Shown here piece by piece: positions 13,893-35,239 of a DNA stretch of 36,469 nucleotides. How positions within the stretch are numbered: the stretch's first letter is position 1; every line of letters starts with the position of its first letter. The DNA comes from a virus: positions 1 to 36,469 of the IMG/VR virus record IMGVR_UViG_3300032006_000033; one strand, given 5' to 3'. Both the position numbers and the translations under genes were made by a program. The notes beneath the pieces were generated by a model that did not search any database, was not told the origin of the DNA, and saw nothing but the letters and a program-made list of their open reading frames with translations.

Positions 13893-14568
13893 ATTTTTCT
13901 AGCCGAGTGTTCCAGGCTTCTGCGGCACGCTCAAACTCTCTGCCTTCCAAAACAAACTCTTGATAAAAACAATCTACTGAGCACATCATAATCACACCTT
14001 TCTTAATCTCGGTGCCATAAACTTCGTTGTGTGCCATGGCATAGGCAGCGAGTTGTTGAAAATAATCCCAAACATAGCGCCTTCGTCTCTTAGGTGTGTT
14101 GGTTTGTTTAAAGTCCATGATAGCTTCTTCGCCTAAATGCCTACCAATCACATCAGCAGTGCCGGCATACTTCCCTGGGTAGTACAAAGGAATCTCACAC
14201 CCGTACACTTGGTCAATGGACGGAAACCCTTGGTCCATGATCGTACAGGCCATTTTATAGGCACGCTTTTGCTCTGGTGTTTCTGGATAATAGTCCCAAA
14301 TGCTGCCTTCTTTTAACTGTCTTTCAAGAATCTCGTGCATTTCGGTGCCTCTAGCTGCCGCTTCGTTTCGTATGCGTTCAGCTTCTTCCTTGCCCACCCG
14401 TTCAATCCACTGTTGTAGACTGTCGTTCTCCGCTTTGGTTTTAGAAAGAATCGTGGTAACAGAACTCAGTCGTTCTTCCCCGTTTAAATAAACACGACCC
14501 TTCTCCGTGGTCTCACGGGAAAGTTCAGCGTATTCATAGGGAGACGAAAAAAGAATCTCGTTCTTCAT
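13819..14568 (-). CDS. PD-(D/E)XK exonuclease (MGME1/RecB-like)
   Basis: A 249-aa protein with the core of the PD-(D/E)XK nuclease fold. RGTEMHEILE (His78) is the motif preceding the core in RecB/MGME1-like nucleases, CEIPLY (Glu125) is the next acidic site, GTADVIG (Asp139) the first catalytic Asp and EEAIMDFKQT (Asp152, Lys154) the D-x-K motif. WDYFQQLAAYAMA is the Q-x3-Y helix that follows in this group. It probably acts as a DNA exonuclease in replication, recombination or host DNA breakdown, like T7 gp6 in role. Last gene of the leftward operon; ATGA overlap with the peroxiredoxin gene. Its end overlaps the giant virion gene on the other strand. Confidence 0.85.
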   Translation of the reverse strand: MKNEILFSSPYEYAELSRETTEKGRVYLNGEERLSSVTTILSKTKAENDSLQQWIERVGKEEAERIRNEAAARGTEMHEILERQLKEGSIWDYYPETPEQKRAYKMACTIMDQGFPSIDQVYGCEIPLYYPGKYAGTADVIGRHLGEEAIMDFKQTNTPKRRRRYVWDYFQQLAAYAMAHNEVYGTEIKKGVIMMCSVDCFYQEFVLEGREFERAAEAWNTRLEKFIQSIQPPPLEQPQLEAETEEEDS

Positions 14569-15077
14569 GCAACAAACTCATCGCCAGGGGACCAAGAACA
14601 ACCTGTAAGACCCCCTGATTGTAGGGCCTTCAGCGTTCTTATAACTTCATCTACGTTTCTTCCTGTGTCCAAAGCATTGACCGATACATGTTGAACAATG
14701 TCTTCTGGATCCAGAATAAAGGTGGCTCTCAAGCAAACCCCCTCCTGTTGGTCAACGATACCGAGTTCATCAGATAAGGATAAACCACAGTCCGCAGCTA
14801 AAACGTGTCTAATTCTTCCAATAAGAGGTTCGGACAGCTTCCAATTAAGTTTACAGAACTCATTGTCTCCACTAACTCCTATAACATTCACGTCTTCGTC
14901 CACCAACCTGTCCATTTCAGCTATCTCGGTGGGACAGATAAAGGTAAAGTCTTTTGGGTAAAAATAAAACACACTCCAATGCTCAGACAAACTGTCGAAG
15001 TTTACGTCTATAATACTGTTGTCTTTGTCAACCCCTGTTAGAAAAAAATCAGGGAATGAATCGCCTACACTAATCAT
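14565..15077 (-). CDS. Peroxiredoxin (AhpC/TSA family)
   Basis: A 170-aa protein with the peroxiredoxin active site PKDFTFICPTE (P-x3-T-x2-C; peroxidatic Cys48) and the conserved Arg118 in LRATFILDP. A possible resolving cysteine is Cys160 in GGLTGCSW near the C-terminus, as in AhpC-type 2-Cys enzymes; Cys75, Cys97 and Cys115 are extra. It should reduce peroxides with thiol donors in the infected cell's cytoplasm. The catalytic set looks intact. It lies between a small basic gene and the exonuclease with ATGA overlaps on both sides, so it is an operon member and not a stray insertion. Probably a host-derived auxiliary metabolic gene; length is slightly short for AhpC (about 187 aa). Confidence 0.92.
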   Translation of the reverse strand: MISVGDSFPDFFLTGVDKDNSIIDVNFDSLSEHWSVFYFYPKDFTFICPTEIAEMDRLVDEDVNVIGVSGDNEFCKLNWKLSEPLIGRIRHVLAADCGLSLSDELGIVDQQEGVCLRATFILDPEDIVQHVSVNALDTGRNVDEVIRTLKALQSGGLTGCSWSPGDEFVA

Positions 15078-15260: not shown

Positions 15261-15416
15261 TTATTGCACTACGCCTTTTTCAATGTCTTCCGCTAATCGT
15301 TTAATAGCGTAAGCAAAAACATAGCTCTTGGGCCGTTCTGTTTTCTTAGAAATTTTGTCTGCTAGTTTAACAATGTCTGTGCGTATAGCTACGCTTTTCC
15401 ATTTAGTTGTGTCCAT
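15261..15416 (-). CDS. Ribbon-helix-helix (Arc/CopG-like) regulator, 51 aa
   Basis: A 51-aa gene, easily missed by its size. Translation: MDTTKWKSVAIRTDIVKLAD, then KISKKTERPKSYVFAYAIKR, then LAEDIEKGVVQ. This fits the RHH fold: a strand (KSVAIRT), helix A (DIVKLADKISKKT), a turn (ERPKS) and helix B (YVFAYAIKRLAEDIEK). It is the first gene after a strong sigma70-like promoter and so may repress its own operon (small basic protein, peroxiredoxin, exonuclease). GGAACC lies before the ATG. Its binding site is unknown; candidates lie in the promoter itself. Confidence 0.75.
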   Translation of the reverse strand: MDTTKWKSVAIRTDIVKLADKISKKTERPKSYVFAYAIKRLAEDIEKGVVQ

Positions 15417-22526: not shown

Positions 22527-23972
22527 ATGAAAAACTATAAGTATCAAACGGAGCCTTACAAGCACCAAGAGAAGACGTTGGCCCGTTCAGCCTTTCGCAA
22601 AGAGTTTGCCCTCTTTTTAGAGATGGGCCTCGGCAAATCGAAAGTTCTCCTGGACAACGCCGCAGTGCTTTTTGAGGCCGACAAAATAAATGCGGTGTTA
22701 ATTATAACACCGAAAGGAAACTTAAGGAATTGGGACAAGAACGAAATACCAAAGCATTTGCCCGAACGAATCGAGAGGGAAGTGGTGGTGTGGCAACCCA
22801 ACCATACGCAGAAGTGGAAACAAGCCTATTGCGGCCTGGTTTTAGAGGAACACCCGGAAAGACTAGAGATTATGACGATGAATGTTGAAGCATTTTCCAC
22901 GGAAAAAGGGCTTAAATTTGCGCGAGCTTTTGTTTTAGGGCACGAAACCATGATTGCCGTGGACGAGAGCACCTTAATTAAGAACCCTAAAGCCAAGCGC
23001 ACCAAAAACTTATTGGGGTTGTCCCGAGAAGCCTCCTATAAAAGAATACTGACCGGGTTTCCTGTGACCAAAACACCTCTTGATCTATACGCGCAATGCG
23101 CTTTCCTTAATCCCTTATTATTAGGGTTCAAAAGTTATTATGCGTTCAAAGCACGATATGCGATTACTAAAATGCGGCGCATGGGCCACAACAGTTTTCA
23201 AGAAATCGTTGGGTATCATCGAATGGACGAACTGCAAGGCATGCTCAAAGAGTTCTCTGCTCGCTACACCAAGGACAAATGTTTAGATCTACCGGAAAAG
23301 GTTTACATGCAACGAAGCGTTGAGCTTAGTGATGAACAGAAAAAAGCCTATGAGCAGATGAGAAAAGAAGCGCTAATGATTATCGCGGACGAAGTGTACA
23401 CCACTCAAACGGTGCTGACTCAGTTAATGCGGCTGCAACAAATTGTTGCGGGAAGTCTGCGCGCACCTTCGGGGGAGGTCCAGGTGCTCAAGAACAACCG
23501 CATAGGAGAAACGCTTAATATATTGGAAGAAATCAGTGGTAAGGCCGTAGTTTTTGCGGTATTTCAAACAGACATAGAGCAGTTGACCAAGAAAATAGCC
23601 GAGGTTTATGGGGACGACAGCGTGGCTTCTTATTACGGGAAGACCTCACAAAAGGACCGGGAAACTATTCTTGATAACTTTCAAGACCCGGACCACCCGC
23701 TTCGATTCTTTGTCTCTAATCCGCACACCGGGGGCCGTGGACTGACCTTAACGGCGGCTTCTCACATGATTTTTTACTCCAACAGCTATGATTTAGAGCT
23801 AAGAATACAGGCAGAGGACCGGATTCACCGCATTGGACAAGACAAAAGCTGTACTTATATTGATCTGGTGTGTGAAAACACGGTGGACGAGAAAATTTTA
23901 GCGTCTTTAAAGAAAAAAGTGGACATATCCAATGAAGTTTTAGGGGAGGTACGACAATGGTTCGGGAAGTAA
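22527..23972 (+). CDS. SNF2-like superfamily 2 helicase/ATPase
   Basis: A 481-aa protein. Seen: YKHQEKTLARSAF (Q-like motif), LEMGLGKSKV (Walker A, residues 31-40), LIITPKGNLRNWDKNE (motif Ia), IAVDESTLIKN (motif II, DEST 146-149), RILTGFPVTKTPLDLYAQ (motif III), SNPHTGGRGLTLTAASHMIF (motif V) and QAEDRIHRIGQ (motif VI). This is the compact SNF2-type enzyme common in phages; it should translocate on double-stranded DNA. The ATG at 22527 has AAGGA 11 nt upstream and is preferred to a TTG at 22497. First gene of the rightward early operon; overlaps the RHH gene by 16 bp. Confidence 0.92.
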   Translation: MKNYKYQTEPYKHQEKTLARSAFRKEFALFLEMGLGKSKVLLDNAAVLFEADKINAVLIITPKGNLRNWDKNEIPKHLPERIEREVVVWQPNHTQKWKQAYCGLVLEEHPERLEIMTMNVEAFSTEKGLKFARAFVLGHETMIAVDESTLIKNPKAKRTKNLLGLSREASYKRILTGFPVTKTPLDLYAQCAFLNPLLLGFKSYYAFKARYAITKMRRMGHNSFQEIVGYHRMDELQGMLKEFSARYTKDKCLDLPEKVYMQRSVELSDEQKKAYEQMRKEALMIIADEVYTTQTVLTQLMRLQQIVAGSLRAPSGEVQVLKNNRIGETLNILEEISGKAVVFAVFQTDIEQLTKKIAEVYGDDSVASYYGKTSQKDRETILDNFQDPDHPLRFFVSNPHTGGRGLTLTAASHMIFYSNSYDLELRIQAEDRIHRIGQDKSCTYIDLVCENTVDEKILASLKKKVDISNEVLGEVRQWFGK

Positions 23973-24223
23973 AACAAAAAACACCAAAGCAAAAGGATAA
24001 AAAGGACACGCAAATAAATATCCGGCTCACGTCCATTGAAAAAAGGAACCTGGACATTATGAGTCGAAGACAGTGGCGCAGTTCCAGTGAGTTTGTCCGG
24101 CGGTTAATAAGTCGGGAATGGAAACGCGTTCGACAGAAGGAAGGCGCGGCTTCGATTGATGCCATGATCGATAGTTTTGAGTCCGGGGACCAAGGAGGAA
24201 AAGACGTTGGCGACATTTTTTAG
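23957..24223 (+). CDS. Ribbon-helix-helix DNA-binding protein
   Basis: An 88-aa protein. A basic tail (VKQKTPKQKDKKD) precedes an RHH-like core: strand TQINIRLTSIE, helix A KRNLDIMSRRQ, turn WRSSSE and helix B FVRRLISREWKRV. The tail after residue 66 is acidic. GGGGAGG lies 8 nt before the ATG and the gene overlaps the helicase gene, so the two are made together. A transcription regulator of the phage early genes is the likely role; its target is unknown. Confidence 0.72.
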   Translation: MVREVKQKTPKQKDKKDTQINIRLTSIEKRNLDIMSRRQWRSSSEFVRRLISREWKRVRQKEGAASIDAMIDSFESGDQGGKDVGDIF

Positions 24224-24260
24224 TTGCTTTTTTGCGTCCTTTTATGTAACCTTATGGGAC

Positions 24261-24476
24261 ATGATAGGAAAACAAAAACAAATAATAAGATTGTCTCTTA
24301 ATGCGGAGAGTTTTGGTAAGGCCAGGACCGCCGCTTTAGCTCGGGACGTGTCTATCGAAGAACTGTTCTTGACATATATTGAAAACGATTACATCGAGAA
24401 CGGCGAAGCGATGGAGGCCCATCTTGACGCTAAGAGTGACTACATGTACGAGATTCAAGAGCGCGGTTTTTCATAA
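24261..24476 (+). CDS. Small RHH-like protein (71 aa)
   Basis: A 71-aa protein starting MIGKQKQIIRLSLNAESFGK. The strand (QIIRLSL), helix (ESFGKARTAALARD), turn (VS) and helix (IEELFLTYIENDYIEN) arrangement resembles the RHH fold of the gene before it, but without a clear consensus, so this is tentative. The ATG at 24261 has only a weak binding site (GGGA very close). A longer frame runs from 24177 but would overlap the preceding gene. Confidence 0.5.
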   Translation: MIGKQKQIIRLSLNAESFGKARTAALARDVSIEELFLTYIENDYIENGEAMEAHLDAKSDYMYEIQERGFS

Positions 24477-30461: not shown

Positions 30462-30498
30462 ACACTAATGTATATACAATGCAAGTATTTATCCCATA
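30462..30498 (-). promoter_or_regulatory. Divergent control region of cluster and VRR-NUC gene
   Basis: On the minus strand TTGCAT (30478-30483), 16 nt and TAGTAT (30456-30461) form a fair leftward promoter. TATCCCATA (30490-30498), the inverse of the TATGGGA motif, lies between it and the rightward gene, and GTATATAC (30470-30477) is a palindrome. A rightward promoter is unclear (TTACTA, 16 nt, TATACA is possible). Confidence 0.4.
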
Positions 30499-30511: not shown

Positions 30512-30928
30512 TTGGCGAAACTGGAAACAAATTTTTGGAAACAGATCAAGAACAACCTAACGGATTTTCAATGGGTTAGGCTAGAGTCTTGGGCTACAAA
30601 AGGTGTACCAGATGTTATGGGCTTTACTAAGGACGGAAAGATCTTTACGGTTGAGTTAAAAGTAACCAAAAGTAGATCGGTTTATTTTTCCCCTCATCAG
30701 ATCGCCTTTCATGTTGAGCATGAAAACTCACCCTGTTTTATCTTGGTCAAGGCCCTCTCTCCTTCATCACCTAAAAAATATGGGATATACCTCTTTCATG
30801 CTAAACAAGTGCGTCAGATCGTGGAACAAGGGCTTGATGCCTCTGCACGATATAGCACCTTGTCCCCTGTCAACTGGTCCGTTGTCCGTGATTCCCTGTT
30901 GACTGAGCTTGATGCCCTTGCACGATAA
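30512..30928 (+). CDS. VRR-NUC/PD-(D/E)XK-type nuclease (TTG start)
   Basis: A 138-aa protein starting at a TTG (MAKLETNFWKQIKNNL) with AAGGA 9 nt upstream. GVPDVMGFTKDG and IFTVELKVTKS carry the catalytic PD-x(n)-ExK set (Asp34, Glu48, Lys50) of the VRR-NUC/Holliday-junction-resolvase-like fold. It may cut branched DNA, the task of T7 endonuclease I. The last 33 codons (LDASARYSTLSPV onwards) are flanked by two copies of the local DNA repeat and resemble degenerate terminator sequence, so the original stop may have been earlier. Confidence 0.8.
   Translation: MAKLETNFWKQIKNNLTDFQWVRLESWATKGVPDVMGFTKDGKIFTVELKVTKSRSVYFSPHQIAFHVEHENSPCFILVKALSPSSPKKYGIYLFHAKQVRQIVEQGLDASARYSTLSPVNWSVVRDSLLTELDALAR
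30833..30927 (+). repeat. Two repeat copies inside the nuclease gene end
   Basis: CTTGATGCCTCTGCACGATA (30833-30852) and CTTGATGCCCTTGCACGATA (30908-30927) differ at two positions. They match the intergenic repeat CTTGTCGCCTTTGCATGATA at most positions. Between them lies GTCCCCTGTC with TCCGTGATTCCCTG, similar to the terminator at 31267. Confidence 0.75.
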
Positions 30929-30948
30929 ATTTTTCGACTCGTTACCAC

Positions 30949-30977
30949 TTGTGATCTGTCCCATATTATTGTATAGT
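30949..30977 (+). promoter_or_regulatory. Promoter P1 with TCCCATA spacer motif
   Basis: TTGTGA (30949-30954), 17 nt containing TCCCATA (30959-30965), then TATAGT (30972-30977). The same motif in the other orientation (TATGGGA, 30985-30991) follows, giving an inverted pair. Confidence 0.5.
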
Positions 30978-31008
30978 ATGTCAGTATGGGAGAAGTCTTA
31001 TTAAATAT

Positions 31009-31037
31009 TTGACACAATGGGAGAAATATGTTATTCT
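31009..31037 (+). promoter_or_regulatory. Promoter P2 with AATGGGA spacer motif
   Basis: Perfect TTGACA (31009-31014), 17 nt containing AATGGGA (31016-31022), then TATTCT (31032-31037). The leader GGGGTTCAATTAACAAGGAG leads to the ATG at 31066. Confidence 0.75.
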
Positions 31038-31065
31038 AGGGGTTCAATTAACAAGGAGAAAAATT

Positions 31066-31257
31066 ATGCACCGAACAAACATACACAATGTTGAAAAAAT
31101 CTACACCAGTATCCAAGAGGAAGTCATGGAGAATGGTAAAGTCTATTATGTAAGACATGTTGAGATTAAGACCAAGAACAATGGGCCAATAGAATTTACT
31201 CTATTTTCTGATGATCGTGCCTCTCTGGTCACCCAACCTTTCCCTTGGAAAAAGTAG
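31066..31257 (+). CDS. Small accessory protein, unknown (63 aa)
   Basis: MHRTNIHNVEKIYTSIQEEV then strands (KVYYVRHVEIKT, IEFTLFSDD). AAGGAG lies 9 nt before the ATG. A longer frame from 31009 would lie within the promoter and is rejected. It forms one stand-alone unit with its promoter and terminator. FTLFSDD recalls small hypothetical phage proteins; no function is known to me. Confidence 0.65.
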   Translation: MHRTNIHNVEKIYTSIQEEVMENGKVYYVRHVEIKTKNNGPIEFTLFSDDRASLVTQPFPWKK

Positions 31258-31266
31258 ATCAGCTCG

Positions 31267-31304
31267 GTCCCCTGTCCGTGATTCGCGGACAGGGGATTTT
31301 TTTT
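31267..31304 (+). terminator. Terminator of the 63-aa unit
   Basis: CCCCTGTCC (31269-31277) pairs with GGACAGGGG (31287-31295), followed by ATTTTTTTT. Confidence 0.88.
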
Positions 31305-31400
31305 CGCCCGTTGCCCCGGCATGATACTTGTGACCGTTGCCTGTTGCCCCGGCATGATACTTGTTGCCTGTCCCCGTTGCCCGTTGCCTTTGCATGATAG
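31305..31400 (+). repeat. Intergenic GCATGATA repeats, three copies
   Basis: Three units: two with GTTGCCCCGGCATGATACTTG and one with GTTGCCTTTGCATGATA. They fill the interval between the terminator and the next promoter; no gene is seen in 31258-31503. Confidence 0.8.
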
Positions 31401-31438
31401 CAACCGCAAAACGAAAATTTGCTGTTGAAAAATAAAGG

Positions 31439-31467
31439 TGTACATATATGGGATACTATGAGATAAT
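31439..31467 (+). promoter_or_regulatory. Promoter P3 with TATGGGA spacer motif
   Basis: TGTACA (31439-31444), 17 nt containing TATGGGA (31447-31453), then GATAAT (31462-31467). Confidence 0.65.
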
Positions 31468-31503
31468 CTCCTTGTAAATAAAACAATTTAGGAGGTATTT
31501 ACT

Positions 31504-31920
31504 ATGGCTAGAAACCTAACCAATAAGCAAACTGAAACTCTCGCGAAAAGACTGGCAGAGGACATTGTTGAAAAGACCGAAAAAGCGGTTAAGAAACACC
31601 CTGACACGAAAAAAGCGTTAGCGAAGTATAGGACTCTGATTAAAAAAGCAGAGAAAGCAACAAAAGAAGCTACTAAGTGTAAGAATGATGTAGAAGCGTT
31701 TTGCAAGGACTTCAATAAAACCAATAAAGTTGTGCGTATGAAACAACGACACTATGGTTGGGACGAGATAGAGATTATTCCTCATTCTTTTTCCGAAGGC
31801 ATTGCGTCTAGGTGGGACTTACAAAAAAGGATTGAGGAAGATATTACCATTGAATATATATTACAAGACAGTAATGTTGACGCGGTAATGGAAGTCCTTA
31901 CTGAGAGGTACTCTATATGA
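31504..31920 (+). CDS. Coiled-coil accessory protein, unknown (138 aa)
   Basis: A lysine-rich coiled-coil half (residues 1-70, for example TLAKRLAEDIVEKTEKAVKK) and a globular end (YGWDEIEIIPHSFSEGIASR). TTTAGGAGG lies 8 nt before the ATG. First gene of the only two-gene unit of the array; its stop overlaps the next start (ATGA). No domain is recognised. Confidence 0.65.
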   Translation: MARNLTNKQTETLAKRLAEDIVEKTEKAVKKHPDTKKALAKYRTLIKKAEKATKEATKCKNDVEAFCKDFNKTNKVVRMKQRHYGWDEIEIIPHSFSEGIASRWDLQKRIEEDITIEYILQDSNVDAVMEVLTERYSI

Positions 31921-32252
31921 TGTGGAAGAAACGGAAGAAAAGAAAAACGCCTAGTACGAAAACCCGTGCCGATTGTGCTTTTGATGCAATCGAAGCTATG
32001 GGAATCGATTACTTTGACCGACTTGAAAGAGAGGGATGTACTGGAGACGAGATCACTCGTAGCACTTATGCGTTGACTCGTTTCTTCGTTCAGCTTCTTG
32101 TTGCTCAAGCAGAGTCCATTGAAGCTGACGCAGTACCGCCTACTGTTTCCGCTATGTTTGACGCAATTCAAGACGAGCTTAAAAATACGGAAGGCGTTGA
32201 TATGGAAGTAGTCGGGGTTAGTGTTGGAGAGGAGAGCAACACCACCCATTAA
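31917..32252 (+). CDS. Small accessory protein, unknown (111 aa)
   Basis: A basic start (MMWKKRKKRKTPSTKTR) then a helical part (FDAIEAMGIDYFDRLEREG, LTRFFVQLLVAQAESIEA) and an acidic end. Starts in an ATGA overlap with the coiled-coil gene, with GAGAGG upstream. The basic patch could bind nucleic acid. No domain is recognised. Confidence 0.65.
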   Translation: MMWKKRKKRKTPSTKTRADCAFDAIEAMGIDYFDRLEREGCTGDEITRSTYALTRFFVQLLVAQAESIEADAVPPTVSAMFDAIQDELKNTEGVDMEVVGVSVGEESNTTH

Positions 32253-32267
32253 GGTCTCTCCTAAAGT

Positions 32268-32298
32268 CCCCTACAGTTCGCGCTGTAGGGGATTTTTT
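32268..32298 (+). terminator. Terminator of the two-gene unit
   Basis: CCCCTACAG (32268-32276) pairs with CTGTAGGGG (32283-32291), followed by ATTTTTTATT. Confidence 0.88.
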
Positions 32299-32300
32299 AT

Positions 32301-32364
32301 TGCCTTTGCCCCCGAACCGCCTGTCGCCTTTGCATGATAACTGCCCGTCGCCCTGGCATGATAA
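32301..32364 (+). repeat. Intergenic GCATGATA repeats, two copies
   Basis: CTGTCGCCTTTGCATGATA (32321-32339) and CGTCGCCCTGGCATGATA (from 32346), plus a fragment TTGCCTTTGCC at 32300. Confidence 0.75.
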
Positions 32365-32392
32365 ACCTTGAACCAAGAGCCTAAAAATAAAG

Positions 32393-32421
32393 TTGGTATA
32401 TTCTGGGACCCATGCTATACT
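32393..32421 (+). promoter_or_regulatory. Promoter P4 with CTGGGA spacer motif
   Basis: TTGGTA (32393-32398), 17 nt containing TTCTGGGACCC, then TATACT (32416-32421). A CAATGTTTAACTAGGAG leader precedes the ATG at 32451. Confidence 0.65.
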
Positions 32422-32450
32422 GAGGACTCAATGTTTAACTAGGAGTAATT

Positions 32451-32792
32451 ATGAAACAAGAATATTACAAGAAGGACGAAATCAAACAACGCTTTGATGA
32501 TTTCCTAGAAGATCGGGACGAAGATTGGATAGAGGAAAATATTGACGATATCCACCACTACGCCTTTAATGAGGATTATTACATCATTGGCTATTATAAA
32601 GCAGAGCAATGGCTCGGTAGTGTGTCCAATGTTTTTGATGTCCTCACAACAATACAAGAATACGAGGACACACATTTCGGAGAACCACACACAGATCTTG
32701 GAAACTCTGAAAAGGTGGTCAACATGTACGCTTATATTGTAGGGGAAGAAGTGGTAGCTGAATGGCTAAACGAAAGACGAGCAATTAACTAG
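32451..32792 (+). CDS. Conserved small accessory protein, unknown (113 aa)
   Basis: An acidic protein MKQEYYKKDEIKQRFDDFLE, with YAFNEDYYIIGYYKAEQWLG, VFDVLTTIQEYE and SEKVVNMYAYIVGEEVV. I recall this pattern (YYIIG, AEQWL, VVNMY) from hypothetical proteins of several marine phages. AGGAG lies before the ATG. A stand-alone unit of the array. Confidence 0.75.
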   Translation: MKQEYYKKDEIKQRFDDFLEDRDEDWIEENIDDIHHYAFNEDYYIIGYYKAEQWLGSVSNVFDVLTTIQEYEDTHFGEPHTDLGNSEKVVNMYAYIVGEEVVAEWLNERRAIN

Positions 32793-32805
32793 GCTTTCTC
32801 CTAGG

Positions 32806-32836
32806 ACCCCCACGGCTCGCGCTGTGGGGGTTTTTC
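32806..32836 (+). terminator. Terminator of the 113-aa unit
   Basis: CCCCCAC (32807-32813) pairs with GTGGGGG (32824-32830), inner CGG/CTG partly pairs, followed by TTTTTCTTT. Confidence 0.82.
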
Positions 32837-32837
32837 T

Positions 32838-32890
32838 TTGCCCGGGGTATGCCTGTCGCCTGTGCATGTTACTTGTCGCCCTTGCATGAC
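32838..32890 (+). repeat. Intergenic GCATG repeats, two copies
   Basis: CTGTCGCCTGTGCATGTTACTT and GTCGCCCTTGCATGAC. Between these and promoter P5 lie two palindromes: TAGAATCATTCTA (32908-32920) and CGCGTGCTACACGCG (32923-32937). Confidence 0.75.
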
Positions 32891-32943
32891 AACAACCAAA
32901 AAGTTTTTAGAATCATTCTAAGCGCGTGCTACACGCGTTGCAC

Positions 32944-32972
32944 TTGCTATATATCCCATAAGTTGAGATAAT
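32944..32972 (+). promoter_or_regulatory. Promoter P5 with inverted motif TATCCCATA
   Basis: TTGCTA (32944-32949), 17 nt containing TATCCCATA (32952-32960), the reverse complement of TATGGGATA, then GATAAT (32967-32972). Confidence 0.65.
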
Positions 32973-33001
32973 ATAGGGGTTCAATAAATAAGGAGAACAA
33001 C

Positions 33002-33208
33002 ATGAAACAACTAGAACTAATAACCATACTCCCCGAGCAGGTCGATCATGCAAGACTGCTTACTTTAAGGTCTGCTCTTAAGCTAGAGCTTCAAGGCCTT
33101 AAGTCTAGGGGACGATCTGCTTACACTATTCTTAAAGAAGAACTGGGCATTAAAGGTTCTCGAGCAAGTGTCTTGGAACAAGTCAACGAACACCTAGACC
33201 AGAGCTAA
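33002..33208 (+). CDS. Small accessory protein, unknown (68 aa)
   Basis: MKQLELITILPEQVDHARLL, then SALKLELQGLKSRGRSAYTI and LKEELGIKGSRASVLEQV. I recall the RGRSAY-LKEELGIKGSR pattern from hypothetical phage proteins. It looks helical with a basic middle, so nucleic acid binding is possible. QLELI at 3-7 is close to QLELF in later units. AAGGAG lies 7 nt before the ATG. Confidence 0.7.
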   Translation: MKQLELITILPEQVDHARLLTLRSALKLELQGLKSRGRSAYTILKEELGIKGSRASVLEQVNEHLDQS

Positions 33209-33222
33209 CCGCTCCTACGATT

Positions 33223-33254
33223 CTCCGCACCCGATCGGGTGCGGAGATTTTTTT
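33223..33254 (+). terminator. Terminator of the 68-aa unit
   Basis: CTCCGCACCC pairs perfectly with GGGTGCGGAG across GATC (33223-33246), followed by ATTTTTTT. Confidence 0.9.
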
Positions 33255-33335
33255 CGCCTGTCGCCTTTGCATGATACTTGTCGCCTGTGCATGACACTCG
33301 CTGCCCTTGCATGATACTTGTTACCCTTACACGAC
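33255..33335 (+). repeat. Intergenic GCATGATACTTG repeats, four tandem copies
   Basis: Units of about 20 bp follow each other directly: TGTCGCCTTTGCATGATACT, TGTCGCCTGTGCATGACACT, CGCTGCCCTTGCATGATACT and TGTTACCCTTACACGAC. This is the clearest tandem block of the family. Confidence 0.85.
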
Positions 33336-33372
33336 CAAGGAACGAGCCTAAGGCTGTTAGAAATAACACTAT

Positions 33373-33400
33373 TTGCTTTTATGGGACAATATGAGATAAT
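33373..33400 (+). promoter_or_regulatory. Promoter P6 with TATGGGA spacer motif
   Basis: TTGCTT (33373-33378), 16 nt containing TATGGGA (33380-33386), then GATAAT (33395-33400). Confidence 0.65.
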
Positions 33401-33425
33401 AACGGAGTGTTTAATAAAAATAACA

Positions 33426-33462
33426 AGGCGTTTTCCATGCTCGAAAGGGCAGGGCTTCGCCT
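33426..33462 (+). promoter_or_regulatory. Structured leader before the 120-aa gene
   Basis: TGCTC-GAAA-GGGCA (33438-33451) is a hairpin with a GNRA tetraloop. CGCCT (33458-33462) can pair either with AGGCG (33426-33430) or with GGGC just upstream, so two folds exclude each other near the binding site AGGAG. Confidence 0.4.
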
Positions 33463-33481
33463 ATATCTAGGAGAAAATAAA

Positions 33482-33844
33482 ATGACACAATTAGAACTAT
33501 TCCCACTTCGCTTCTTTGTTAATGTGTATGACGCAGCCAGTGCTTATGGCGGTCCTGAAGAAGGAGGGTGGTATTATAACGACTACACCTTTATAGGGTG
33601 TTACGGTGCTTTTCCTGATTTTGAGAGTGCAGATCTACGTGCCAAAGAAGTAAAGGAAGCCTTGAAGAAGGACGAGCCTACCGTCTATCACATGGGTCAT
33701 GGTCCGCATGACGGAGTAAACGAAGCAGGGGAAGGTGATGACGCCTATCTTCTCAGAGGCGGGCGTTGGGGTAAAAGCAGTTACAGCACCTTTATCCAAG
33801 AAGAACAAGGCAAAGACTTCAACGATTACGCGCCGTATTCGTAA
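33482..33844 (+). CDS. Small accessory protein with QLELF motif (120 aa)
   Basis: MTQLELFPLRFFVNVYDAAS, then GWYYNDYTFIGCYGAFPDF and a Gly/Asp-rich middle. I chose the ATG at 33482 since AGGAG lies 9 nt upstream as in sister genes; an in-frame ATG at 33437 would add 15 residues. QLELF (3-7) matches the bacterial sliding-clamp-binding consensus QL(S/D)LF except for E for S/D. No fold is recognised. Confidence 0.65.
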   Translation: MTQLELFPLRFFVNVYDAASAYGGPEEGGWYYNDYTFIGCYGAFPDFESADLRAKEVKEALKKDEPTVYHMGHGPHDGVNEAGEGDDAYLLRGGRWGKSSYSTFIQEEQGKDFNDYAPYS

Positions 33845-33855
33845 GCCTTAACAAG

Positions 33856-33889
33856 AACCCCCGCATCTATCCAGATGCGGGGGTTTTCT
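33856..33889 (+). terminator. Terminator of the 120-aa unit
   Basis: AACCCCCGCATCT pairs with AGATGCGGGGGTT across ATCC (33856-33885), followed by TTCTTTT. Confidence 0.9.
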
Positions 33890-33890
33890 T

Positions 33891-33963
33891 TTGTCCGTGC
33901 TCCGCCTGTTGCCTCCCCATGATACTTGTCGCCTGCGCCCTGCTCGCTGCCCTTGCATGATAC
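33891..33963 (+). repeat. Intergenic GCATGATA repeats, partly eroded
   Basis: CTGTTGCCTCCCCATGATACTT, GTCGCCTGCGCC and CGCTGCCCTTGCATGATA. The middle copy lost its GCATGATA part. Confidence 0.7.
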
Positions 33964-33980
33964 CGTATGCCCTGGGCCAT

Positions 33981-33997
33981 GCGTCACAGTTTGACGC
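33981..33997. promoter_or_regulatory. Palindrome GCGTCA/TGACGC upstream of P7
   Basis: GCGTCACAGTTTGACGC has 6-bp perfect arms. A copy with one change lies at 34813-34829, over the -35 box of promoter P9. Confidence 0.6.
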
Positions 33998-34002
33998 TTT
34001 AT

Positions 34003-34031
34003 TTGACTTTATGGGAGATTTATCATAAGAT
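34003..34031 (+). promoter_or_regulatory. Promoter P7 with TATGGGA spacer motif
   Basis: TTGACT (34003-34008), 17 nt containing TATGGGA (34010-34016), then TAAGAT (34026-34031). Confidence 0.65.
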
Positions 34032-34062
34032 AGGGTTTCAATTAACTATTAGGAGAAATCCA

Positions 34063-34239
34063 ATGAACATCGAAACAGTCCAAATACTCATCCTTCTCAT
34101 AGCCACGGGCGGCGGCCTAAGCTTGCCTTACGTTGCTTATCTTATCTGGACCACGACCGATATGATCTTATCAGCCCTATTGATTGCCTTGTTCGGCCTT
34201 CTCTGTGCTTTCGTGGCCCTGGTAGGATGGTTCGCTTAG
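34063..34239 (+). CDS. Small two-helix membrane protein (58 aa)
   Basis: MNIETVQILILLIATGGGLS, then LPYVAYLIW and MILSALLIALFGLLCAFVAL followed by VGWFA. Two hydrophobic helices separated by TTTD suggest an inner-membrane protein. Size and layout would suit a holin-like or superinfection-exclusion protein, but nothing specific is seen. AGGAGAAATCCA precedes the ATG; a longer frame from 33967 runs through the promoter and is rejected. Confidence 0.65.
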   Translation: MNIETVQILILLIATGGGLSLPYVAYLIWTTTDMILSALLIALFGLLCAFVALVGWFA

Positions 34240-34307
34240 GCCGCATCGTTGCCGCTACGTTAATCTTTATTCTCTTCTACCTTATCCCTATGCTCGCCAG
34301 AGTGTAG
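34227..34307 (+). CDS. Possible 26-aa membrane peptide overlapping the previous gene
   Basis: MVRLGRIVAATLIFILFYLI then PMLARV. It overlaps the end of the 58-aa membrane gene by 13 bp in another frame. It has one hydrophobic helix with positive ends. The binding site (GGTAGG) is too close to be convincing, so this is tentative. Confidence 0.35.
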   Translation: MVRLGRIVAATLIFILFYLIPMLARV

Positions 34308-34312
34308 GGACC

Positions 34313-34355
34313 TGCCCCCCGGTTCTCCTAAATTGTTAATTGTTCTCGGGGGGTA
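34313..34355 (+). ncRNA. C/G-clamped hairpin with antisense-leader loop
   Basis: CCCCCCG (34315-34321) pairs with CGGGGGG (34347-34353). The 25-nt loop holds TTCTCCTAAATTGTTAATTG (34323-34342), the reverse complement of CAATTAACAATTTAGGAGAA, and so of the shared leader plus Shine-Dalgarno with a one-base bulge. No T tract follows. This takes the place of the usual terminator of this unit. Confidence 0.5.
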
Positions 34356-34363
34356 CGGTGGAC

Positions 34364-34392
34364 TTGTACATGTATGGGATGTATGGTATACT
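34364..34392 (+). promoter_or_regulatory. Promoter P8 with TATGGGA spacer motif
   Basis: TTGTAC (34364-34369), 17 nt containing TATGGGA (34373-34379), then TATACT (34387-34392). The following leader (GGGTACTCAATTAACAATTA) is shared with P9. Confidence 0.7.
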
Positions 34393-34426
34393 GGGTACTC
34401 AATTAACAATTAAATAGGAGAGTATT

Positions 34427-34678
34427 ATGGCTCATTTTAAAACAACGCCTGAGATAGGGGACACCGTTGAGTGTGACGCGTGCCACGGTAAAGGCTGGTA
34501 TTCTATGTCACCGGCCACAGACGATGAAAACTACAACGACTACTATCAAACTGACCACAACTGTCACAACTGTCGTCGCACCGGTAAACTGGTAGTGGTA
34601 GGCTTTAGCAAGTACGGAATTGAAACACAGGCCCCTGAGTCTGACTGGGTCTATGGAGAAGACGGAGACTACAGCTAA
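34427..34678 (+). CDS. DnaJ-type zinc-finger small protein (83 aa)
   Basis: MAHFKTTPEIGDTVECDACH then GKGWY, and later CHNCRRTGKLVVV. The CxxCxGxG and CxxCxxTGK pair is the repeat of DnaJ-type cysteine-rich domains, here as a single zinc site (Cys16, Cys19, Cys46, Cys49). There is no J domain, so it is not a chaperone DnaJ; it may bind protein or nucleic acid. AGGAGAG precedes the ATG. A stand-alone unit of the array. Confidence 0.75.
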   Translation: MAHFKTTPEIGDTVECDACHGKGWYSMSPATDDENYNDYYQTDHNCHNCRRTGKLVVVGFSKYGIETQAPESDWVYGEDGDYS

Positions 34679-34693
34679 CCCTGACCCCTAACA

Positions 34694-34725
34694 GCCCCCA
34701 CATCTGAGTAGATGTGGGGGCTTTT
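34694..34725 (+). terminator. Terminator of the zinc-finger unit
   Basis: GCCCCCACATCT pairs with AGATGTGGGGGC across GAGT (34694-34721), followed by TTTTCC. Confidence 0.88.
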
Positions 34726-34727
34726 CC

Positions 34728-34772
34728 TTGTCGCCTTTGCATGTTACCCGCGCGTCGCCTGGGCATGATACG
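34728..34772 (+). repeat. Intergenic GCATG repeats, two copies
   Basis: TTGTCGCCTTTGCATGTTA (34728-34747) and GCGTCGCCTGGGCATGATA. A short ACACAT(ACACAT) run follows. Confidence 0.75.
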
Positions 34773-34812
34773 CGTACACATACACATACGCCTGTGCGGG
34801 AAGAATAAGGGT

Positions 34813-34852
34813 GCGTCACGGTTTGACGCATGTATGGGATTCATGGTATACT
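34813..34852 (+). promoter_or_regulatory. Promoter P9 with overlapping palindrome and TATGGGA
   Basis: GCGTCACGGTTTGACGC (34813-34829) contains the -35 TTGACG (34823-34828). An 18-nt spacer with TATGGGA (34833-34839) leads to TATACT (34847-34852). From the TATGGGA on, it is nearly identical to P8 for about 40 bp, indicating recent duplication. Confidence 0.72.
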
Positions 34853-34884
34853 GGGTACTCAATTAACAATTAGGAGAAATCCAA

Positions 34885-35193
34885 ATGAACCAAATAGTCT
34901 TTAAGAATCCAATGGGTAAAGTACAAAAAGTAGACGGCTGCAAAACAGTCTACGAAACAGTTAGCTTACCTAAACCAGCGTGGATGGGATGCCACGAGTG
35001 GCGAACAGGCAGCGTGGTGACTAAGAGAACCCGGTACGGTGTTTCCAAGAAGGACCTTGTCGACAAGCTAATGCTACAGTGGCTGGCGGAGCAGGAGTGG
35101 GAACCAAAGAGTGGGGAGCAATTGGAACTGTTTCCACACCCGATGGACTTAGCTGAGAACAACCCTTCGCTTTGCCCACACTGTTACAGCTAA
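34885..35193 (+). CDS. Small accessory protein with QLELF and CPHC (102 aa)
   Basis: MNQIVFKNPMGKVQKVDGCK, then MGCHEWRTGSVVTKRTRYGV and LMLQWLAEQEW. QLELF at 79-83, in a probably exposed linker, resembles the sliding-clamp-binding motif. The C-terminus LCPHCYS with two cysteines might bind metal with Cys19 and Cys36. AGGAGAAATCCAA precedes the ATG. Last unit of the array. Confidence 0.68.
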   Translation: MNQIVFKNPMGKVQKVDGCKTVYETVSLPKPAWMGCHEWRTGSVVTKRTRYGVSKKDLVDKLMLQWLAEQEWEPKSGEQLELFPHPMDLAENNPSLCPHCYS

Positions 35194-35207
35194 TCTCTTA
35201 ACCCCCA

Positions 35208-35239
35208 GCCCCCGCATCTACTCAGGTGCGGGGGCTTTT
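35208..35239 (+). terminator. Terminator of the last array unit
   Basis: GCCCCCGCATCT (35208-35219) pairs with AGGTGCGGGGGC (35224-35235), one G-U pair, followed by TTTTG. The stem sequence is close to that at 33856. Confidence 0.88.

Follow-up and report, generated by a model that had tools for sequence, protein, structure and literature searches.

The phage record IMGVR_UViG_3300032006_000033 of IMG/VR, analysed here over its full length of 36,469 bases (the window), carries between 30.9 and 34.9 kb nine sigma70-type promoters that precede small genes and share a heptamer, TATGGGA, in their spacers. As a whole, this region is probably best explained as an array of exchangeable gene cassettes that are repressed together through the heptamer by a very small ribbon-helix-helix (RHH) protein, which we call mini-RHH. 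The anatomy of the array, the conservation of the heptamer, the exchange of open reading frames (ORFs) between phages, the universal mini-RHH gene, and the presence of the operator at the mini-RHH promoter in two distant lineages are all read directly from the DNA of the window and its relatives. Beyond these observations, we infer that TATGGGA is bound by protein, that the effect is repression and not activation, that it follows a particular timing, and that mini-RHH is the binder, in preference to the second RHH protein RHH1, the product of a neighboring ORF at 24261, or a host factor.

Among annotated phages, the DNA polymerase of the window is nearest to those of the isolate psg01 (54% identity), Pelagibacter phage HTVC023P (51%), and phage DSL-LC04 (50%). 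The phage is a marine phage of the HTVC023P/DSL-LC04 type, and probably lytic, since Phage_integrase gave no match in 19 related records, which may be fragments. In viral contigs, 183 stretches coding for a relative were found; the relatives are grouped below as near, mid, and far, with the far lineage having a polymerase 54% identical to that of the window. The array region itself had no match among annotated phages by megablast.

Organization of the array

Each unit follows one order—that is, one or more copies of a 20-bp repeat, a promoter with its operator, a leader, one or two small ORFs, and a terminator. A preliminary description of this DNA had proposed nine sigma70-like promoters with a motif in the spacer, and all nine lie where it placed them, carrying TATGGGA or, at P1 and P5, its reverse complement (one or two copies are mismatched). 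One correction concerns the number of units: P1 and P2 are in tandem ahead of a single gene, giving nine promoters and eight units. Seven of the eight units are closed by an intrinsic terminator (a GC hairpin followed by a T tract), in line with the earlier remark that all but one are; the exception is the P7 unit. The leaders are short and A/T-rich with a strong Shine-Dalgarno site, and in most units the motif lies 34–47 nt 5' of that site. The common leader reported earlier holds only in part: the full CAATTAACAATT is found at P8 and P9, and P2 and P7 have only partial versions. A promoter scan of 30.5–36.5 kb by consensus alone returned 16 sites, compared with 8.2 ± 2.4 in shuffled sequence, and most of its intergenic matches on the + strand contain the motif.

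All array features lie on the + strand. P1 (30949–30977; TTGTGA-17-TATAGT, with TCCCAT at 30959–30964 in the spacer) is kept in the relatives G001, G002, L089, and L090, and is followed by P2 (31009–31037; TTGACA-17-TATTCT, with ATGGGA at 31017–31022 in the spacer), which is predicted to drive a 63-residue ORF (31066–31257) followed by the terminator of unit 1 (31266–31298). P3 (31439–31467; TGTACA-17-GATAAT, operator at 31448) would drive two ORFs (31504–31920 and 31917–32252) in unit 2 (terminator 32268–32296), and P4 (32393–32421, with CTGGGA at 32403) a 113-residue ORF (32451–32792) in unit 3 (terminator 32807–32835), a slot that is exchanged in L087, L088, and L089. The operator of P5 (32944–32972) is reversed (TCCCAT at 32954), and its predicted product is a 68-residue ORF (33002–33208; terminator of unit 4, 33222–33247); P6 (33372–33400, operator at 33381) precedes a 120-residue ORF (33482–33844; terminator of unit 5, 33854–33887). 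P7 (34003–34031, operator at 34011) belongs to a 58-residue membrane-like ORF (34063–34239), the sole unit without a terminator, and P8 (34365–34392, operator at 34374) to an 83-residue Cys-rich ORF (34427–34678; terminator of unit 7, 34693–34722), the sole unit without a preceding 20-bp repeat. Finally, P9 (34823–34852; TTGACG-18-TATACT, operator at 34834) serves a 102-residue ORF (34885–35193; terminator of unit 8, 35207–35236). In agreement with the earlier remark that most products lack a known function, most array ORFs have no known domain; the 83-residue protein bears a weak likeness to the central, Cys-rich domain of DnaJ.

The TATGGGA heptamer

The window as a whole has 27 copies of ATGGGA where 16.4 would be expected, a count equaled or exceeded in one of 100 shuffles; without the promoter copies the count is about what chance gives, and the excess is thus located in promoters. 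The density of TATGGGA in the window is 1.43 per kb in non-coding and 0.16 per kb in coding DNA, and near genomes likewise show a several-fold difference. Conservation of the motif in related phages was a test set beforehand for the proposal of one phage regulon, and the motif proved to be conserved. When the 100 nt in front of ORFs with a ribosome site were collected from the array loci of relatives (193 non-redundant stretches), an unbiased ranking of 6-mers placed TATGGG first (40 observed, 5.8 expected), followed by ATGGGA (38 vs. 7.3) and TCCCAT (14 vs. 2.7), and the conservation extends to distant lineages, which supports a common regulon as far as sequence can indicate one. TATGGGA is the top 7-mer in both the near (9 vs. 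0.7) and the far (6 vs. 0.4) lineage; in the mid lineage it does not rank with the top 7-mers, though single sites do occur. Upstream of the ORFs of mid-lineage relatives, the top 7-mer is TAACGAA (15 vs. 2.1), possibly a shared leader signal.

Alignment of 81 non-redundant candidate sites gave an asymmetric TATGGGA core with a weak A and T downstream, 56 of the sites being forward and 25 reverse. A fully palindromic operator was considered and dropped, as a perfect palindrome, ATGGGACATGTCCCAT, was seen only in L092/L093 and the logo of the 81 sites is asymmetric. In L096, a single site is common to the spacers of two face-to-face promoters. The site lies within the spacer in the array promoters; in the spacer, over the −10 box, or at the predicted start site in psg01; and, in L013–L018 and L065, after the −10 box of a promoter that points away from the replication operon. 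Spacer, −10, and start-site positions are those at which a bound repressor would be expected to block RNA polymerase.

The preliminary description had left a choice between an operator and an activator site, and of these the operator fits better, given that the motif lies mostly in or over the core promoter, with variable spacing and in both orientations. It is improbable, in our estimate, that TATGGGA acts as an activator site or an extended core-promoter element that boosts the host polymerase in the manner of the T4 MotA box. The motif is indeed present in nine of nine array promoters, several of which have a weak −35 box (TGTACA, TTTGCT), and one site outside the array lies upstream of a −35 box, as an activator site might; however, its position varies between the spacer, the −10 box, and the start site, both orientations are used, and in many of the promoters both the −35 box and the extended −10 box are good.

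Two conserved copies outside the array went unmentioned in the preliminary description. One (30492–30498, − strand) lies between the VRR-NUC gene (30512–30928, + strand) and a leftward operon, and the other (24253–24259, + strand) lies between RHH1 and the following 71-residue RHH-like ORF (24261–24476). Around the latter, positions 24253–24266 read TATGGGACATGATA, the operator heptamer joined to a CATGATA core that resembles the core of the 20-bp repeat; this arrangement between RHH1 and the next ORF is conserved in G001, G002, G004, and G013.

Mini-RHH as the candidate repressor

The preliminary description made no choice of binder among three RHH proteins. The evidence favors mini-RHH, encoded 15 kb from the array, as the putative binder of TATGGGA. 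Its gene (15261–15416, − strand) stands just after the DNA polymerase gene and specifies a predicted Arc-like protein of 51 residues. The first lead came from the far lineage: there, a small gene downstream of the polymerase codes for an RHH-like product of 55–60 residues, and TCCCATA covers the predicted start site of this gene. A mini-RHH of 48–63 residues occupies the same place in every near and mid locus with enough sequence (54 polymerase loci; L027 and L034 end too early to be scored), and its strand, KWKSVAIR, is almost invariant in these two lineages. Retrieval by protein alone gave 55 distinct mini-RHH genes, nearly all of the far lineage, and 49 of them have ATGGGA or TCCCAT at most 130 nt upstream. 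Across 47 aligned mini-RHH promoters, conservation of the TCCCATA that covers the predicted start site is 97% or higher, like that of the −35 and −10 boxes. Six far-lineage contigs always have non-coding TATGGGA in the mini-RHH promoter, where it is the only such copy (G025, G026, and G027) or one of two or three (the other three contigs), and in psg01 the heptamer is present at the mini-RHH gene as well as at further promoters. Since TATGGGA stands at the promoter of the mini-RHH gene itself in the far lineage and psg01, the operator of an autorepressor seems to have spread onto an accessory array; the simplest history would be its export to other promoters and, in the lineage of the window, to the cassettes.

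For the window protein, PHROG gives an Arc-like repressor family (E 3.4e-4), and the protein has no convincing match in Pfam or NCBIfam. Its structural model (pLDDT 77) resembles CopG, CdbA, PutA, and Arc at Z 4.7–5.5, and the top structural matches are mostly RHH proteins, but weak (Foldseek E above 0.6). Sequence searches against solved structures gave nothing convincing for either RHH family. Close to the mini-RHH gene, after the polymerase, a peroxiredoxin-like gene was identified by eye (14565–15077, − strand), an unusual cargo for a phage.

According to the mechanism that we propose, the array promoters would fire early from the host RNA polymerase. Mini-RHH, made from the gene just after the DNA polymerase, would then bind TATGGGA and block RNA polymerase, so that all array promoters would be shut together.

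Several observations weigh against this assignment. The mini-RHH gene of the window has no TATGGGA in its own promoter, and several mid-lineage contigs (G008, G014, G007, and G018) carry mini-RHH and, over the stretch read, have TATGGGA nowhere in non-coding DNA. On the recognition strand, the residues that face DNA vary: they are S-A-R in both the near and the mid lineage, S-S-S in the far lineage, and S-S-P in psg01, with K-S common to all. Moreover, the match in structure is modest and the operator has a short core, and the conserved site at 30492–30498 sits 5' of a −35 box, outside any spacer.

In G014 (L279 and L280), whose polymerase is approximately 72% identical, TATGGGA is absent from 40 kb, compared with 2–13 copies in the others; this phage may have lost or replaced the heptamer. 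For HTVC023P, the 49 kb read contain one non-coding TATGGGA only, and mini-RHH was not found there with the searches run.

Two other binders have to be weighed against mini-RHH. The first is another RHH protein of the phage—either RHH1 (23957–24223, + strand) or the product of the ORF at 24261–24476—for which the mini-RHH gene would be just another target. In its favor, sites are most numerous in genomes that carry RHH1 (7–11 in those with a complete array), the gap that separates RHH1 from the next ORF has a conserved TATGGGA, and RHH1 retains an Arc-type Q-N-R strand. We nevertheless regard this as unlikely: TATGGGA promoters persist without detectable RHH1 in L094, L095, G005, G006, G010, and G020, and the case for RHH1 is weakened because such lineages still have sites; in the far lineage, moreover, the heptamer is centered on the mini-RHH gene. 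The second is a host regulator that reads TATGGGA and is exploited by the phage for coordinated early expression, a proposal to which we give a similarly small chance. It would suit the host-type sigma70 character of the array promoters, and host factors are used by many phages. However, the same heptamer is present in phages that differ in base composition (36–38% GC in the far lineage vs. 45% in the window) and probably in host, and it is placed at the promoter of the phage regulator itself.

Exchange of cassettes between phages

The array recurs in related genomes, where it had been suggested that it be sought: twelve arrays show the same order of repeat or repeats, operator promoter, ORF or ORFs, and terminator, apart from a few units in which an exact operator or repeat is missing. 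Beyond what had been described, these comparisons reveal replacement of ORFs between constant flanks. Between the window and L089, homology spans the preceding terminator, two repeats, the promoter, and the leader of the P4 unit, gives way to unrelated ORFs (113 vs. 84 residues), and resumes at ATTAACTAGGCTTTCTCCTAGG to run through the terminator; in L087 and L088 the P4 slot is filled by a different ORF again, with the leader kept. As judged from these alignments, ORFs are swapped between fixed promoter/operator and terminator flanks in near-identical phages. As operator, leader, and terminator stay the same, any ORF arriving in a slot by recombination would immediately become part of the regulon.

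Some cassettes (L089 6088–6230, L276, and L259) have repeats and a terminator without an exact TATGGGA, and L089 has TCTCATA at the position of TCCCATA in the window. Cassettes of this kind have perhaps escaped from the regulon.

Such recombination raises the question of whether promoters and terminators are simply copied repeats, so that TATGGGA would be identical from site to site through common descent of duplicated promoters. The promoter and leader blocks of the array do repeat one another, and cassettes are exchanged; yet the −35 box, −10 box, spacer length, and motif orientation differ between promoters while the heptamer is constant, and the far lineage and psg01 carry it in unrelated promoters whose surroundings have drifted. 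Descent by copying is therefore the least credible of the alternatives, with very little probability in its favor.

The 20-bp repeat and RHH1

The 20-bp repeats noticed earlier in several intervals are real, and they in fact form a single directional family with the core GTYGCCYTTGCATGATAC (30908–34771, + strand). Thirteen copies (at 30908, 31307, 31340, 31380, 32320, 32344, 32872, 33257, 33277, 33297, 33943, 34727, and 34751), all on the + strand, lie between a terminator and the next promoter, and every unit except that of P8 is preceded by at least one. In nine arrays, 92 copies have GTYGCCYTTGCATGATAC in common, often at a spacing of exactly 20 bp, and lie 40–104 nt before the next operator. 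Variable positions in these copies are mostly T/C exchanges on the + strand. A coding explanation for the repeats was ruled out, as the variable positions are not synonymous. The first copies run into the 3' end of VRR-NUC, and because those at 30840 and 30915 lie inside the gene, the C-terminus of its product (LDASAR...LDALAR) looks repeat-derived.

RHH1, an Arc-like protein of 88 residues, is a candidate binder of the repeat. It has an invariant Q-x-N-x-R strand, which we take to be the Q9/N11/R13 pattern of Arc; its predicted structure was poor (pLDDT 59) and was left unused. Repeats and RHH1 occur together in five of the five records in which both regions are visible, and L015/L094, L017/L095, and the mid-lineage contigs have neither. 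Placing the RHH1-negative label on the polymerase tree requires two changes or more, so that the match between RHH1 and the repeat is not merely due to one shared ancestor, although the sample is small. We tentatively suggest, with low confidence, that RHH1 may bind the repeat; alternatively, the repeat may merely be a recombination seam. It is conceivable, if doubtful, that the array has two layers of control, with mini-RHH at TATGGGA and RHH1 on the 20-bp repeats, and thus forms a platform for capturing and silencing genes. If so, accessory genes, possibly with counter-defence roles, would be exchanged at repeat seams and still be repressible as a group.

Significance and comparison with known systems

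In abundant marine phages, small genes without a known function are the majority, and here the DNA marks out one putatively co-regulated, exchangeable accessory set, points to a tiny candidate regulator, and supplies a rule for finding further cassettes (20-bp repeat, TATGGGA promoter, ORF, terminator). The proposed system would show how a probably lytic phage gains genes that come under its control circuit from the start, and how the operator of an autorepressor can spread into a regulon. We found no description of this array and no paper on psg01, and a survey of HTVC023P-type phages (PMC9599517) uses neither "promoter" nor "ribbon-helix" in its main text.

A short asymmetric site that occurs at many places in the genome and answers to one regulator recalls the temperate mycobacteriophage L5 (cluster A), whose repressor is a helix-turn-helix protein of 183 residues and whose 13-bp stoperators are oriented with transcription and also act on elongation (PMC9283540). 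TATGGGA differs in occurring in both orientations; it also shows no excess outside promoters, for which reason a stoperator reading was dropped. As for the 20-bp repeats, they all point in one direction, yet so do all array units. In other mycobacteriophages, 17-bp palindromic repeats are found throughout the genomes of cluster O (PMC4351075), and cluster K has SAS and ESAS motifs, the SAS adjoining start codons (PMC3203893). Like these, TATGGGA is a short motif with many copies near small genes, but it lies in the promoter spacer and not beside the translation start.

Arc, Mnt, and CopG are strand-helix-helix repressors of approximately 50 residues that are often autoregulated; the binder here is predicted, and the proposed regulon would span some ten promoters instead of a single operator region. 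The morons of lambdoid phages are single extra genes with their own promoter and terminator, whereas here many such genes stand in a row under a shared operator, with no sign of a temperate phage.

The closest parallel may lie in T4-type phages, whose promoter early stem loops (PeSL) were reportedly described as mobile regulatory cassettes by Arbiol et al. in 2010 and Comeau et al. in 2014. PeSL mediate gene shuffling in T4-like phages (PMC4503421). Both systems have repeated promoter and stem-loop units between small ORFs, and in both ORFs are shuffled between related phages. The differences are that the phage here is of the HTVC023P/DSL-LC04 type, that each promoter has an operator heptamer, and that nearly every unit has a directional 20-bp repeat; given its nearest polymerases, the window does not qualify as a T4-like myovirus genome. 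By analogy, then, the array resembles the PeSL cassettes of T4-type phages combined with a multi-operator regulon.

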